64,000 nucleotides of DNA, taken from Thermocrinis minervae (GTDB taxonomy: Bacteria > Aquificota > Aquificia > Aquificales > Aquificaceae). A program made the position numbers and the translations under genes. The stretch spans positions 772,750 to 836,749 of the forward strand of contig NZ_LT670846.1 of NCBI RefSeq assembly GCF_900142435.1, given 5' to 3'. Shown here one piece after another: positions 643-37,861 of the stretch. Positions within the stretch are counted from its first letter, which is position 1; every line of letters starts with the position of its first letter. Below the pieces are notes generated by a model that worked only from the letters and a program-made list of their open reading frames with translations, was not told the DNA's origin and ran no database searches.

Positions 643-661
643 TGGGGGCCTTCCCCATTTA
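642..661. terminator. Candidate bidirectional terminator between converging genes
   Basis: ATGGGG (642-647) and CCCCAT (653-658) form a 6-bp GC-rich stem with a 5-nt loop, followed by TTT on the + strand. It lies exactly between the stop codons of tpx and the converging membrane-protein gene. The T-tract is short, so strength is uncertain. Confidence 0.5.
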
Positions 662-1573
662 ATCCCTAAGAAGAAGGTAGATAAAGAAAAGCAGGGTTGC
701 TTGAAGACCAAAGAAGGCAGTAAGCTTTACGTAAGAGAAGTGCGGGCTTAGGTACCTTATAGCTATACCTGAGGTATTGTCAAGGAAAGCAAATACAAAA
801 GACAGTGCAGTCATTAGGTTTATGTATTTTTTCCTGTCGCTGAACAGGGCAAGGTGGCCAACGGTCAGCAGATAAAGGGGCATGGAAAGAAGGTGAGGGT
901 GGAAGACCTTCCACATACCCTCCCATGTTTTGGGTTTCATGTACCTCTCTGGGTTTCCTAGGTAGTAGTCTTTTATGCCCTGTAGGTCAAAGCCCATCTT
1001 GGAGAAGAAGGCCATAAAGCTGGATGCTATAAAGAGCAGGGAGAGCAAGGAGAATAAAACAAGGATAAGTCTTATAGTGGAAATCCCTACCTTTTCTCCC
1101 TTGGAGTTTGAAAAGAGAAATAAAAAGTTAAGGATTATCAAAAGGGCTACCGTAAGCTGTAAAAGTACAAAGAGTACTAGCTTGGGTAGCACCCAGTGAG
1201 GTCCCAAAAAGTAGATCACCATATCCCACGCGTGGTACAGTATGGCAGTAAGGAAGGCTGTAGCATTAAGGACTTTCTTGAAGGTTTCAGGAAAGTTTGT
1301 CTGCAAAAACAAGGAGCTGAGTACGAGAAGGAACATTGAATCTAGAAAGGTATGCACATGCATATCCTCCGAAAGTTGGGCCAAGGATATCCTTTCCGGA
1401 GATTCAGGATCTTGAAAGTAGTATCTGAGGAGGCTCTCATGGCTAAAACCATACTTGGTGTAGAAGAAGAGCCACGAGCTTACCCAGTAGAGCACGGAAA
1501 AGAGAAGGAAGAGCAGGAGCATGTAGTAGAGCATCCTATTTTCCTTTATGTTGGAAGATACGAAAAACCTCAT
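659..1573 (-). CDS. Polytopic membrane protein with internal duplication and paired HxH motifs
   Basis: A 304-aa protein with about eight hydrophobic segments. The two halves resemble each other. Half one has YGFSHESLLRYYFQDPE, then MHVH (H72, H74), H114 and GPH (H126). Half two has MGFDLQGIKDYYLGNPE, then FHPH (H225, H227), H240 and SPH (H278). The shared order GF...YY...PE / HxH / PH strongly suggests a duplicated four-helix unit whose histidines could bind heme or metal; this is inference. The start overlaps the stop of the FMN-binding gene by ATGA, so the two are translationally coupled. Together with the porin upstream it forms a leftward three-gene cassette. Not assigned to a named family. 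Confidence 0.75.
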   Translation of the reverse strand: MRFFVSSNIKENRMLYYMLLLFLLFSVLYWVSSWLFFYTKYGFSHESLLRYYFQDPESPERISLAQLSEDMHVHTFLDSMFLLVLSSLFLQTNFPETFKKVLNATAFLTAILYHAWDMVIYFLGPHWVLPKLVLFVLLQLTVALLIILNFLFLFSNSKGEKVGISTIRLILVLFSLLSLLFIASSFMAFFSKMGFDLQGIKDYYLGNPERYMKPKTWEGMWKVFHPHLLSMPLYLLTVGHLALFSDRKKYINLMTALSFVFAFLDNTSGIAIRYLSPHFSYVKLTAFFGLQATLLFFIYLLLRD

Positions 1574-2100
1574 CTAGCACCCCCAAACAGCACCTTCCAC
1601 ATATGAAGCACCTTCCTGGCGTTGTCCGTTATGGCCCTTGAGGTGAGGGTAGCACCCGTCATGTTTATTACGTCCTTTTTTAGCCTGACAGGATCTGCCC
1701 CTGACTTTCCTTTGAACTGCCTTAGCCATTCCTCATCGGGCATGTACTCCAAGGGTTCATTGAAGGAAAGGACCTCAATCGCAAGGATCCTACCCTTTGA
1801 ATCAAGGGCGTAAAGGACTGTCTCGGGATGCGTCCTTACAGTATGCACGTCTACGTAGGCGTAGCCTACTATCTGTCCATTCCTTTTGGCTATGTACCAA
1901 GAGATAAGCCTGCTGTTTAGTTTTACCTTAGAGGCCTCTTCTATGGCATTAACCTGCTCGGGAGTAAGCACTACATTCTTCACCTCCACCTTGGCACCTG
2001 GGAATATCTGAGCGAGGGCTCTGTCTAAGGTTTGGAACTCCCTTGAACCGCCGAAGGAGAAAAAGATAAGAACAATCAACAAAAACCAACATCTACACAT
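1570..2100 (-). CDS. FMN-binding domain protein (NqrC/RnfG-type, periplasm-facing)
   Basis: About 176 aa from the preferred start. The start is placed at an ATG that begins a typical export signal (MCRCWFLLIVLIFFSFGG). An in-frame ATG 60 nt upstream (2160) would only add a hydrophilic extension encoded by a hairpin. The C-terminal segment INMTGATLTSRAITDNARK carries the [S/T]GAT motif on which ApbE attaches FMN through a phosphodiester bond to the last Thr (known for the family). The protein is probably a periplasmic or membrane-tethered one-electron carrier. It lies between an outer-membrane porin and a His-rich membrane protein, which fits an electron-transfer path across the envelope. The partner electron donor is not visible here. 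Confidence 0.8.
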   Translation of the reverse strand: MCRCWFLLIVLIFFSFGGSREFQTLDRALAQIFPGAKVEVKNVVLTPEQVNAIEEASKVKLNSRLISWYIAKRNGQIVGYAYVDVHTVRTHPETVLYALDSKGRILAIEVLSFNEPLEYMPDEEWLRQFKGKSGADPVRLKKDVINMTGATLTSRAITDNARKVLHMWKVLFGGAR

Positions 2101-2118
2101 AGAGGATAAATATAAAGA

Positions 2119-2136
2119 CCCCTCCTTCAGGAGGGG
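2119..2136 (-). terminator. GC hairpin between the porin and FMN-binding genes (attenuator or processing site)
   Basis: CCCCTCC (2119-2125) pairs perfectly with GGAGGGG (2130-2136) around a 4-nt loop. On the minus strand it is followed by TCTTTATATTTAT. It sits between the porin stop and the likely start of the FMN-binding gene. It may attenuate readthrough so that the porin is made in excess, or stabilise the porin mRNA 3' end. Confidence 0.5.
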
Positions 2137-2169
2137 AACATGAGCAAGAGCCCTGGCCATGGCACACCC

Positions 2170-3534
2170 TTAGAACATAAAACCAAGGGTAAGCCTGTAC
2201 TCGTTTTCATCCTTCTTGTTGTCCTTGTAGTTTATCCTTACGTAGTCTGTCTTTATGGCCACCAGTGGATGAGGTTTGTAGGACAGTCCCAGGTTGTATA
2301 TGTCCCTTCTATGCCCCACCGGCTTTATAAAACCATCAGGAACCTCCTTGTGTGTGTCTATGTTCTCGTAGATACCAAAGAGGTAAAGCTCCTGATTACT
2401 CATATCAAAGAGTCTAAAAAGATCGTAAGCGACCTGTACGTAGAAGCCTTGCTGTTTTGACGGAAAACCGTTTATGCCCGCATCCTGTCCTATCCTTTTA
2501 GCATCCGTAAAGTTGACAAAAGCCCCTACGAACCTGATGTCAAAGCCCGCATACTGCCACCAGAGGTGGGGAGAGAGCAGGAAAACAGAGCCTACCTTGC
2601 TGCCACGCCTTAAGCCAAGGCTTGAATCCATTCCACCCTTGGACTGCACATCTCCATAGAAGAACGATGAACCCAGCTTAAGGTTGTAAGGGAGTTTAAG
2701 GTCTATCCTACCTGTAAAGCCGAGCCTGTCGGCGACAGCCCTTGCTCCCCTTTGTTTTAGAGATTGCATTATACGTGTGTTTGACGTTTTTTCATTTCCG
2801 TTTATCATAAGACCGTTAGTCACGTAAAACCTGTAGTCTACGTTCTTTATGGTGCCATAGATTCCAAGGCCCATCTCCTCCCACGTGGATGGGATAAGTG
2901 TCCTTTCAAGGAAGGGCCTTTGGGCGCTTGGAAAGGTAGGTGGTTCGTGAACCTCGTTTATGATACCAACAGGCATAAGGAGCAAGCCACCTCTGAAGCC
3001 AAGCTCTGGCCTGTAGGCGTAATCAAGCATGGCCAGCTCAGCCTTAAAGTATTCTCCTCCAGTTCCTTGCTCTTCGCTGGTTGAAGCATGCTCCAGCTCT
3101 AGCTCAGAGGTAAACTTCAGTCTTTCTGTAAAGGCATAGCCAAGGTACACAACGAACCTTTGCATGTCGGCTATGCTTTTGGCACCACCTCTTTTGTCTA
3201 CGTCGTTGTGTTCAAAGGTGAGCTCTCCGTAACCCCCTACGGACACGCCCTTTGGGTTGAACAGCGCCTTAGAGGCCGCGGGTCCAAGCCCTGAGTAAGA
3301 TCTAAACTCCACAGAAGGCATGGCGATTTCCAGCCTGAGCTTCCTTATCTCCTCCTTTAAGACCTCACTCTCTTCAGAAGCTTCCTTTTTACTCCTTTCC
3401 TGTTCTTCCTTTAGCCTTTGTATCTCATGCTGGAGGGCTTTTATCTGTTCCTCCAGTTGACGGATTTTGTCTTCTGTGGTTTGAGCTAAAGCAAAGCTGG
3501 AAAAGAGGGCTCCTAAAAGAAGCACCTTTCTCAT
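2170..3534 (-). CDS. Outer-membrane porin with N-terminal coiled coil
   Basis: A 454-aa exported protein. Residues 1-17 (MRKVLLLGALFSSFALA) are a signal peptide. Residues 20-70 are a Glu/Lys/Gln-rich coiled coil like the periplasmic trimerisation or peptidoglycan-contact segments of some porins. The rest alternates polar and hydrophobic residues with aromatic girdles and ends in Phe (LGFMF), as expected for a BAM-assembled barrel. Substrate unknown; the family resembles phosphate-selective-like porins only in general form. It is first in a cassette with the FMN-binding and His-rich membrane proteins. A palindrome-rich region directly upstream suggests repression by a Fur-family-like regulator. 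Confidence 0.8.
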   Translation of the reverse strand: MRKVLLLGALFSSFALAQTTEDKIRQLEEQIKALQHEIQRLKEEQERSKKEASEESEVLKEEIRKLRLEIAMPSVEFRSYSGLGPAASKALFNPKGVSVGGYGELTFEHNDVDKRGGAKSIADMQRFVVYLGYAFTERLKFTSELELEHASTSEEQGTGGEYFKAELAMLDYAYRPELGFRGGLLLMPVGIINEVHEPPTFPSAQRPFLERTLIPSTWEEMGLGIYGTIKNVDYRFYVTNGLMINGNEKTSNTRIMQSLKQRGARAVADRLGFTGRIDLKLPYNLKLGSSFFYGDVQSKGGMDSSLGLRRGSKVGSVFLLSPHLWWQYAGFDIRFVGAFVNFTDAKRIGQDAGINGFPSKQQGFYVQVAYDLFRLFDMSNQELYLFGIYENIDTHKEVPDGFIKPVGHRRDIYNLGLSYKPHPLVAIKTDYVRINYKDNKKDENEYRLTLGFMF

Positions 3535-3555: not shown

Positions 3556-3624
3556 TGAGATTGTATCTCATTTATGCAGAAACTGATATTAGATGTCAAT
3601 ATGATTTATCTCATTTAAGATAAA
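3556..3624. promoter_or_regulatory. Double operator, Fur/PerR-like, upstream of the porin cassette
   Basis: Two inverted repeats are visible: TGAGAT-TGT-ATCTCA (3556-3570) and TTTATCT-N6-AGATAAA (3605-3611 / 3618-3624). The 11-mer TATCTCATTTA occurs at both (3564-3574 and 3607-3617), 43 bp apart, about four helical turns. The first is close to a 7-1-7 Fur-family palindrome. The sites lie just in front of the porin start, so they should control the leftward cassette. Confidence 0.6.
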
Positions 3625-3630
3625 CTCATC

Positions 3631-3809
3631 AGTTGTTTAGACTTAAACAGGGACAACATCTGCGATGCTCCTTACAGACCTGTGTCCTACAGCTCTGTGC
3701 TCTTTGAAAAGTACCCCATCAGCTTACTCTTCTACGACAGCTTTTTAGTTAACTTGTTTTTAACCCCAGCACGCTCATAGATAAAGAACCCCTTGCTAAA
3801 AGACCATGA
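3631..3809 (+). pseudogene. nosD: nosD remnant (C-terminal end)
   Basis: The frame reads DLNRDNICDAPYRPV and continues with SYSSVLFEKYPISLLFYDSF and LVNLF. This matches the C-terminal end of NosD, the periplasmic copper-loading factor of nitrous oxide reductase, where D-x-DGDGIGD-PYRPVS is followed by a leucine-rich helix. A frameshift or deletion follows. A second frame then resumes with STLIDKEPLAKRP and a stop whose TGA overlaps the ATG of the nosF remnant, as in a genuine nosDF operon. Everything upstream of this segment is gone. Identification rests on remembered family features, not a search. Confidence 0.65.
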
Positions 3810-4082
3810 TACGTGTAGAAGATCTGTATAAATACTTCCGAGGTAAGAAGGTACTTAAGGGGATAAGTGCAGAGTTCAAGGAGGGCAAGAGAACAGCCAT
3901 ACTAGGACCAACCCGATGGCGGGAGGGTAACCTTTAGGAACAACATTGACCAAAGGAGAGTGATAAGTTACATGCCACAAGAGCCGAAGTTTCCGGAGAA
4001 TCTTACGGTGCTTGATATAGTGAGGATGGTGGAGGACATAAGGGGTGAAAGATCCAAGGAGCTGGACAGTCTGTTGGAGCTA
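3806..4082 (+). pseudogene. nosF: nosF-type ABC ATPase remnant (Walker A deleted)
   Basis: It begins normally: MIRVEDLYKYFRGKKVLKG, then GISAEFKEGKRTAILGP. The next residues should be the Walker A loop. Instead there is a deletion of the order of 100-150 bp with a frameshift, and the frame resumes with DGGRVTFRNNIDQRRVISYM and PQEPKFPENLTVLDIVRM (Q-loop region). The reading then ends in LDSLLELF and runs into permease sequence, so the signature motif and Walker B are also missing. It cannot encode a working ATPase. The start overlaps the nosD stop. Confidence 0.75.
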
Positions 4083-4567
4083 TTCCTCTGTGTTCTTGTC
4101 CGTATGTGCAACCCTCATACTTCCTTATCTCTTGGTCTCCATAGCCCTTTATTACTACTTTTACGGTTTTGAGCACATGTACGTATTTCCTGTCCTGCTC
4201 TCATCTTCCTTAATTCCTCTCTTCGTTTCTGTCGGCATGTTCGTATCGCTGACCGTAGAAGATAGATTTACTGGCTTGCTCGTAGCTTTGCTTGTATGGC
4301 TATTCTTAGCAGGTCTGTACGATGCGTTCATCCTTTACCTGGCTATACTACTATCCGAGTATCCGGTGGAGAGTGTGGTCATTCTCCTGACCATGCTTAA
4401 TCCCATAGATACCAAACACCGGTCTTTCAGAGCTCCTGAGCTTTGTGGGTAGTTGGCTTAAGGAACGTTCCAGTCTACTCCGGCCTCTCTCCTTCTTGAC
4501 TACCTTCTTCTATACCTTTTCCTTCCTATTGGTGGGTTTGAGGGCATTTCGCAGGAAGGATTTCTGA
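4083..4567 (+). pseudogene. nosY: nosY-type ABC permease remnant
   Basis: An open frame encodes about 120 aa of transmembrane sequence (SVFLSVCATLILPYLLVSIA and onward), including the LNPID motif typical of NosY permeases. A frameshift near 4430 switches to a second frame carrying the expected C-terminal end, FVGSWLKERSSLLRPLSFL and then LLVGLRAFRRKDF, before the stop. The N-terminal helices are absent, because the sequence joins directly to the nosF fragment. The last bases overlap the probable -10 element of galU. Confidence 0.7.
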
Positions 4568-4582
4568 TAAAATATCCGGATC

Positions 4583-5470
4583 ATGGTCAGGAAAGCCGTT
4601 CTACCGGTGGCGGGTTGGGGGACGAGGTTTCTGCCAGCAACGAAGGCCATGCCCAAGGAAATGTTTCCGCTCATAGACAAGCCCATAATACAGTTCATAG
4701 TGGAGGAGTGCCTTGATGCAGACATAGAGAACATCATATTCGTCACAGGAAGACACAAAAGACCCATAGAACACCATTTTGACATAAACGCAGATTTGGA
4801 AAGGTTTTTGGAAAAATCGGGAAAGTACACTTTACTTGAAGAAATACGGCAAGTAAGCAGGCTTATAAACCCTATATACGTAAGACAGAAAGAGCAGCTT
4901 GGTCTAGGTCATGCCGTGCTGACTGCTGAGCCAGTGGTAGGAAACGAGCCTTTCTTAGTAGCACTGGGAGATATAGTACTAAGGGGCCCTTCAAATTCTA
5001 CAAGGGATATTATCAAAGTGTTTGAAAGATTAAAGAGAAGCGTTATAGCTGTCTTTGAGGTTCCTTATTCAGAAGTCTCCAAGTATGGCATAGTGAAAGT
5101 AGAAGATCCCTCCGCAGAACTGTCGCGCATAGTGGATTTGGTGGAAAAACCTAACGTGGATGAAGCACCCTCAAACCTGGCCATAGTGGGAAGGTATGTG
5201 TTTACGCCTGCTATCTTTGAAAAGCTTAGAAAGACAAGGCCAGGTAAAGGTGGAGAGATACAGTTGACGGATGCCATAAAGCTTTTGCTTGAGGAGGAAG
5301 AGGTCTATGCTTTTAAGATAAAGGCGAAGGTGTACGACACAGGGACACCCCTCGGTTACCTTCAGACCCTTGTTGATTTTGCTCTGCACAGAAAAGACCT
5401 AAAGGACGAATTCTTCCTCTTCCTACAGAGGATCGTCAATAGTAGTAACCTACAGCCAGATAGAACTTAG
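4583..5470 (+). CDS. galU: UTP--glucose-1-phosphate uridylyltransferase
   Basis: Makes UDP-glucose from UTP and glucose-1-phosphate for envelope glycans. It is 295 aa, the usual bacterial length. The nucleotide-binding loop is AGWGTRFLPATKAMPKEM near the N-terminus, followed by DKPIIQFIVEE and later VEKPN and GRYVFTP. There is no Shine-Dalgarno sequence; a TAAAAT hexamer (4568-4573) lies 9 nt before the ATG, pointing to a leaderless or near-leaderless transcript starting in the dead nosY sequence. The 3' end overlaps the converging bamA gene by 35 bp. The phosphohexomutase in this window could supply its substrate. Confidence 0.95.
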   Translation: MVRKAVLPVAGWGTRFLPATKAMPKEMFPLIDKPIIQFIVEECLDADIENIIFVTGRHKRPIEHHFDINADLERFLEKSGKYTLLEEIRQVSRLINPIYVRQKEQLGLGHAVLTAEPVVGNEPFLVALGDIVLRGPSNSTRDIIKVFERLKRSVIAVFEVPYSEVSKYGIVKVEDPSAELSRIVDLVEKPNVDEAPSNLAIVGRYVFTPAIFEKLRKTRPGKGGEIQLTDAIKLLLEEEEVYAFKIKAKVYDTGTPLGYLQTLVDFALHRKDLKDEFFLFLQRIVNSSNLQPDRT

Positions 5471-36781: not shown

Positions 36782-37861
36782 ATGCTCTACCACTTAGCTT
36801 TAGAACTCAGACACTATTTTTTTGCCTTTAATGTCTTTAAGTACATAACCTTTAGATCCCTACTTGCCATAATCTTGGCCTTCGTGCTTGTACTGGTGAT
36901 AACTCCCATATTCACCAGAAAGATGAAGGCAGTCCAGAGGCTTTTTAAGGGGTACGTAAGGGAGTACACTCCAGAGGGTCATGTAATAAAGAGGTACGTA
37001 CCCACCATGGGTGGTTTTGTCATCCTCCTGTCTATACTAGTGAGCTCTTTGCTTCTTATGAGGCTTGACCTTATCTACTTTTGGATCATAACCTTCTGCA
37101 TGGTTGGCTTTGCCCTGATCGGCTTTTTGGATGACTATGTAAAGCTAAAAAATAAAAAGGGAATATCTGCAAAGCTTAAGTTTTCCCTCCAAATGGTAGT
37201 AGCTACCGTAACGGCCCTTTTTATATACTTCTTTACTGACGTAGGAACTAAGCTCTATTTCCCTGTATTCAAAAACCTACAGGTAGACCTTGGGCTTTTC
37301 TACATACCCTTCTGCGTTTTTGTGATAGTGGCTACCTCCAACGCCGTAAACCTTACGGATGGGCTTGATGGACTCGCCATAGGACCTGTTATGACTACAG
37401 CCGGAGCTTTGGGAGTAGTCTCTTACGCTGTGGGGCATGCTACACTTTCCAAGTATCTAAACATACCCTACGTGCCATACGCAGGTGACCTTACAGTTTT
37501 ATGCTTTGCCATAGTAGGTGCAGGGCTTGGCTTTTTGTGGTTTAACGCGTACCCGGCTCAGCTCTTCATGGGGGATGTGGGTGCCCTCTCCTTGGGTGCT
37601 ACCCTTGGGGTCATAGCTGTAGTCTCTAAGTCTGAGTTACTCCTCCCTATAGCTGGTGGTGTTTTCGTGTTTGAAACCTTGTCGGTCATACTACAGGTAG
37701 CCTACTTTAAGCTCACCAAGGGAAAGAGACTTTTCAAGATGGCTCCCTTTCATCATCATCTTGAGCTTTCAGGGATTCCAGAACCTAAGATAGTGGTCAG
37801 GATGTGGATAATCTCCTTCCTGCTGGCCGTTTTAACAGTTGCCACCCTTAAGGTAAGATGA
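36782..37861 (+). CDS. mraY: Phospho-N-acetylmuramoyl-pentapeptide transferase
   Basis: Forms lipid I in the inner membrane. It is 359 aa with about ten helices. Catalytic motifs are [28 protein letters not shown] and the cytoplasmic [11 protein letters not shown]. The MurNAc-pentapeptide loop PTMGG is present near residue 74. It overlaps the next gene by 4 bp and follows the methyltransferase by 1 bp. Other mur genes are not adjacent. Confidence 0.96.

Follow-up and report, generated by a model that had tools for sequence, protein, structure and literature searches.

In the 64,000-nucleotide stretch of Thermocrinis minervae DNA analyzed here (the window, whose positions are used below), the plus-strand segment at 3640-4567 is a pseudogene remnant of nosD, nosF, and nosY that keeps the original gene order. 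Sequence comparisons make it very probable that this segment is non-functional as a nosD-nosF-nosY module, and that it descended from an ancestral operon of the Aquificaceae lineage. NosDFY is a maturation ABC system consisting of a periplasmic protein (NosD), an ATPase (NosF), and a membrane protein (NosY), the genes for which help put copper into the nitrous-oxide-reducing enzyme.

Intact reference operons were taken from two relatives of the same family, G022 and G010, and the residue numbers given for kept and missing pieces are those of G022 NosD, NosF, and NosY. The translated search proposed in an earlier sequence-only reading of this DNA, performed by tblastn with the three G022 proteins against the window, yielded collinear, same-strand matches (E values of 1e-11 for NosD, 6e-18 for NosF, and 1e-30 for NosY). 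Read in order, the frames of the segment correspond to the NosD C-terminal end, followed by NosF and then NosY in two pieces each. Collinear homology to all three proteins is thus combined with disabling lesions, and that reading's proposal of a decayed nosD-nosF-nosY operon, with its parts still in order and an ATGA overlap, was confirmed by the NosD profile TIGR04247, the tblastn matches, and a lesion map drawn from a frame-aware alignment of the remnant. Another ABC system, considered as an identity for the segment, was ruled out by the NosD-type neighbor and by best matches to nosDFY.

The nosD remnant (3640-3809, plus strand) retains residues 332-366 and 377-396 of the C-terminal end, as located by TIGR04247, tblastn, and alignment. 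Its frame 1 from 3640 matches positions 313-353 of TIGR04247 (E 4.4e-8, NCBIfam profile search); residues 1-331 are missing, a 10-codon gap separates residues 366 and 377, a frameshift lies near 3754, and the native stop TGA is kept at 3807-3809. This stop overlaps the nosF start in an ATGA, read directly from the sequence at 3806-3809 (plus strand), and the same overlap occurs in the intact G010 operon. Both nosF pieces were located by tblastn, frame-aware alignment, and profile A3: the N-terminus (residues 1-35; 3806-3910, plus strand), which the profile matches at 776555-776662 in the genome, and a middle piece (residues 53-114, including the Q-loop MPQ; 3912-4082, plus strand), inside which lies a further 5-codon gap. 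Between them the Walker A motif is deleted (residues 36-52, a 17-codon gap), with a frameshift beside the deletion at about 3911. One deletion fuses NosF residue 114 to NosY residue 88, taking the NosF signature and Walker B with it; with residues 36-52 and 115-232 missing, none of the three motifs of a functional NosF is intact. NosY is represented by its middle (residues 88-197; 4081-4410, plus strand; profile A1, E 3.8e-26, as well as tblastn and alignment) and, beyond a 7-codon gap and a frameshift after residue 197, by its C-terminal end (residues 205-255; 4415-4567, plus strand; the same three methods), where the native terminus is kept as KDF followed by the stop TGA, ending at 4567. 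Neither NosD nor NosY is full-length and open, as NosD residues 1-331 and NosY residues 1-87 are missing and both frames are broken.

Overall, nosDFY occupies 928 bases in the remnant versus 2638 bases in G022, such that about 65% has been deleted. The damage is chiefly by deletion, with three frameshifts and no in-frame stops in 308 aligned codons. The sequence-only reading had described the kept pieces correctly (the NosD C-terminus, the NosF N-terminus without Walker A, and the NosY middle and C-terminus), and the few frameshifts it mentioned number three; however, it understated the damage, overlooking the loss of NosF after residue 114 and the fact that large deletions did most of the decay. 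The operon is a known one, and the segment is an ordinary pseudogene remnant of it.

The genome is a single contig of 1,367,821 bases, rated 100% complete, and NosZ is absent from the whole of it: profile TIGR04246, used since PF18793 gave no matches even in controls, matched only over its last approximately 100 positions, at no more than 45 bits versus a cut-off of 625. A working NosDFY would accordingly have no nosZ in the same genome. The remnant is the sole NosD match genome-wide (TIGR04247; profile A2, E 2.3e-10), and no second NosY was found in a whole-genome search with profile A1. The remaining matches to the NosF profile are ABC ATPases, with no further NosD or NosY anywhere in the genome to accompany them. 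With no NosZ and no further NosD or NosY in a complete genome, relocation of the machinery, which the sequence-only reading had allowed for, is excluded for these three proteins; the genome search that it suggested recovered neither nosZ nor an intact nosDFY. A plasmid blastn search with the region gave no match, and no traces of nosZ or nosL at a meaningful score were found in the window. The sole NosL-family match in the genome is a 190-aa protein of a type found across the family, and a match to the nos membrane protein at 36992-37138 of the window lies inside an intact, unrelated gene of 359 aa.

The present-day absence extends beyond the last step of denitrification, as neither NirS nor full-length NarG was found in the whole genome. 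The NOR/oxidase-like subunit that adjoins the nos genes in G010 also lacks a close match in this genome; the best one is 30% identical, comparable to the second gene of this kind in other relatives, and close copies occur in five genomes, each matching at 75% or more. The deficit is accordingly wider than the last denitrification step, to which that reading had confined the loss.

We compared the region with 40 relatives by blastn, which found nos operons in G022 and G010, both ordered nosZ, membrane protein gene, nosL, nosD, nosF, nosY. In the tree, the remnant clusters with these nosZ-linked operons (support 98/99), which supports its descent from the family's nosZ-linked operon. Its identity to the G038 copy is 36.6% versus 38.2 and 38.9% for the intact genes, and its identity to the G034 copy is 39.5% versus 38.6 and 38.2%. 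The remnant thus stands about as near to the outgroup copies as do the intact genes. This indicates that, relative to the divergence of genera, the decay is probably young; it proceeded mainly by deletion. The differences that the remnant does carry retain the codon-position pattern typical of coding sequence, and in simulations of neutral change (300 copies per value) stop-free copies made up 7% at 0.1 changes per site and at most 2% at 0.15 and above. The end branch of the remnant is long (0.67 versus 0.36 for G022 and 0.45 for G010); because GalU of the same genome is also long-branched in its own tree (0.34 versus a median of 0.098), this length does not clearly indicate prolonged neutral drift. 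The suggestion that the loss was recent holds insofar as there are no in-frame stops and no excess substitutions. Remnants of nosD or nosY outside an operon were found in no other genome searched (40 relatives, none of the same genus).

The distribution of nos genes was surveyed by profile counts over 41 genomes, 10 of which have a NosZ above the cut-off. A further genome, G013, encodes a divergent NosZ-like protein with its own NosD, NosF, and NosY relatives (L028); this protein is 34% identical to G022 NosZ and under the family cut-off. Genomes with near-identical GalU differ in the presence of nos genes (G010 versus G018; G022 versus G005 and G014), and these pairs differ in nirS as well, suggesting that an entire denitrification island was gained or lost. 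In G036 (L031), nosZ (at about 6371) and nosD (at about 9670) are each split by a frame change, that in nosD within a TA repeat, reflecting either early decay or sequencing error. A blastn match in G015 was a chance one, in a low-complexity, lysine-rich gene.

The remnant sits between a porin-like gene (2170-3534, minus strand) and a gene for a GalU-type nucleotidyltransferase (4583-5470, plus strand; PF00483), and only 15 bases separate its end from the galU start codon. In many relatives a BamA-type gene comes after galU, and the genes upstream of galU vary. No relative examined has nos genes at galU, and decay in place is therefore without synteny support; an ABC ATPase encoded upstream of galU in L038 is not NosF, being 32% identical to it and having an unrelated gene next. 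On the other side, the minus-strand cluster at 659-3534 encodes the porin-like protein along with two others, an FMN-binding protein (PF04205) and a membrane protein of 304 aa that matches no Pfam family; relatives of these two adjoin in L064 too. Two perfect palindromes upstream of the porin-like gene (start 3534, minus strand), GAGATTGTATCTC (3557-3569) and TTATCTCATTTAAGATAA (3606-3623), resemble operators that a regulator acting on the porin cluster might use.

The lack of nos genes at the galU site of every relative, together with their patchiness among close relatives, would suit a nos fragment that arrived beside galU by horizontal transfer, already broken, and never worked in this lineage. 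We consider this very unlikely, as the tree places the remnant with nos operons of its own family, from which it diverges to a genus-level extent and without excess change; a recent import should be near some donor, yet none was present among the genomes searched, and the third-position GC of the remnant (0.55) falls within the range of its neighbors. Alternatively, the remnant, although dead as protein, may have been kept since part of it serves galU as a promoter or leader, the upstream region of galU falling inside it. Such co-option as regulatory DNA seems improbable: neither a sigma-70-like promoter (mean of shuffles 1.8) nor an Rfam match was found in the region, and if the decay is young, persistence needs no selection. 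A working operon whose frames were broken only by assembly errors is scarcely credible. The three frameshifts do depend on single assembled bases, but the single-contig genome lacks approximately 1.7 kb of nosDFY and nosZ in its entirety, and the long neighboring genes (860, 1151, and 454 codons) are unbroken.

We therefore favor decay of an ancestral operon. In relatives, nosDFY forms the 3' end of the nosZ operon, and an ancestor of this lineage of Aquificaceae would have carried an operon of that kind; once selection on N2O reduction ceased, deletions would have taken most of nosD and the genes upstream of it (nosZ, the membrane protein gene, and nosL), as well as the nosF Walker A and the sequence between the middle of nosF and the middle of nosY, and three frameshifts would have broken the remaining pieces, presumably in that order. 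We infer that nosZ was in the lost 5' part and that the ancestor respired N2O. As for the N2O-reducing ancestor proposed from the sequence alone, the tree argues for the ancestral nos cluster, and N2O respiration itself would follow from it.

The remnant provides physical evidence, beyond presence and absence, that a nos operon was once present in an Aquificaceae lineage now lacking the denitrification genes sought; it captures decay by deletion at an early stage, and it supports loss, besides gain, behind the patchy occurrence of N2O reduction among Aquificales. The mechanism of decay is commonplace, and the case is one of ordinary respiratory-pathway loss with a well-preserved fossil. A literature search found no paper on nos pseudogenes in Aquificales; in Yellowstone populations of this group, narG, norB, nirK, and nirS were not found (PMC3665934).

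Compared with the nosZ operons of G022 and G010 (NosZ family TIGR04246), the remnant is alike in its nosD-nosF-nosY order and, for G010, in the ATGA overlap, and it shares 45-48% residue identity with them across the kept columns. Unlike those operons, it lacks nosZ, the membrane protein gene, and nosL, as well as most of nosDFY itself, and it carries three frame breaks. Loss of nos genes is known in other bacteria, having been discussed for Neisseria and Azospirillum (PMC4250227), and denitrification is incomplete in Thermus (PMC10989939). Those cases are alike in the modular loss or lack of denitrification steps; T. minervae differs in lacking nirS, full-length narG, and nosZ together and in having kept a physical remnant.
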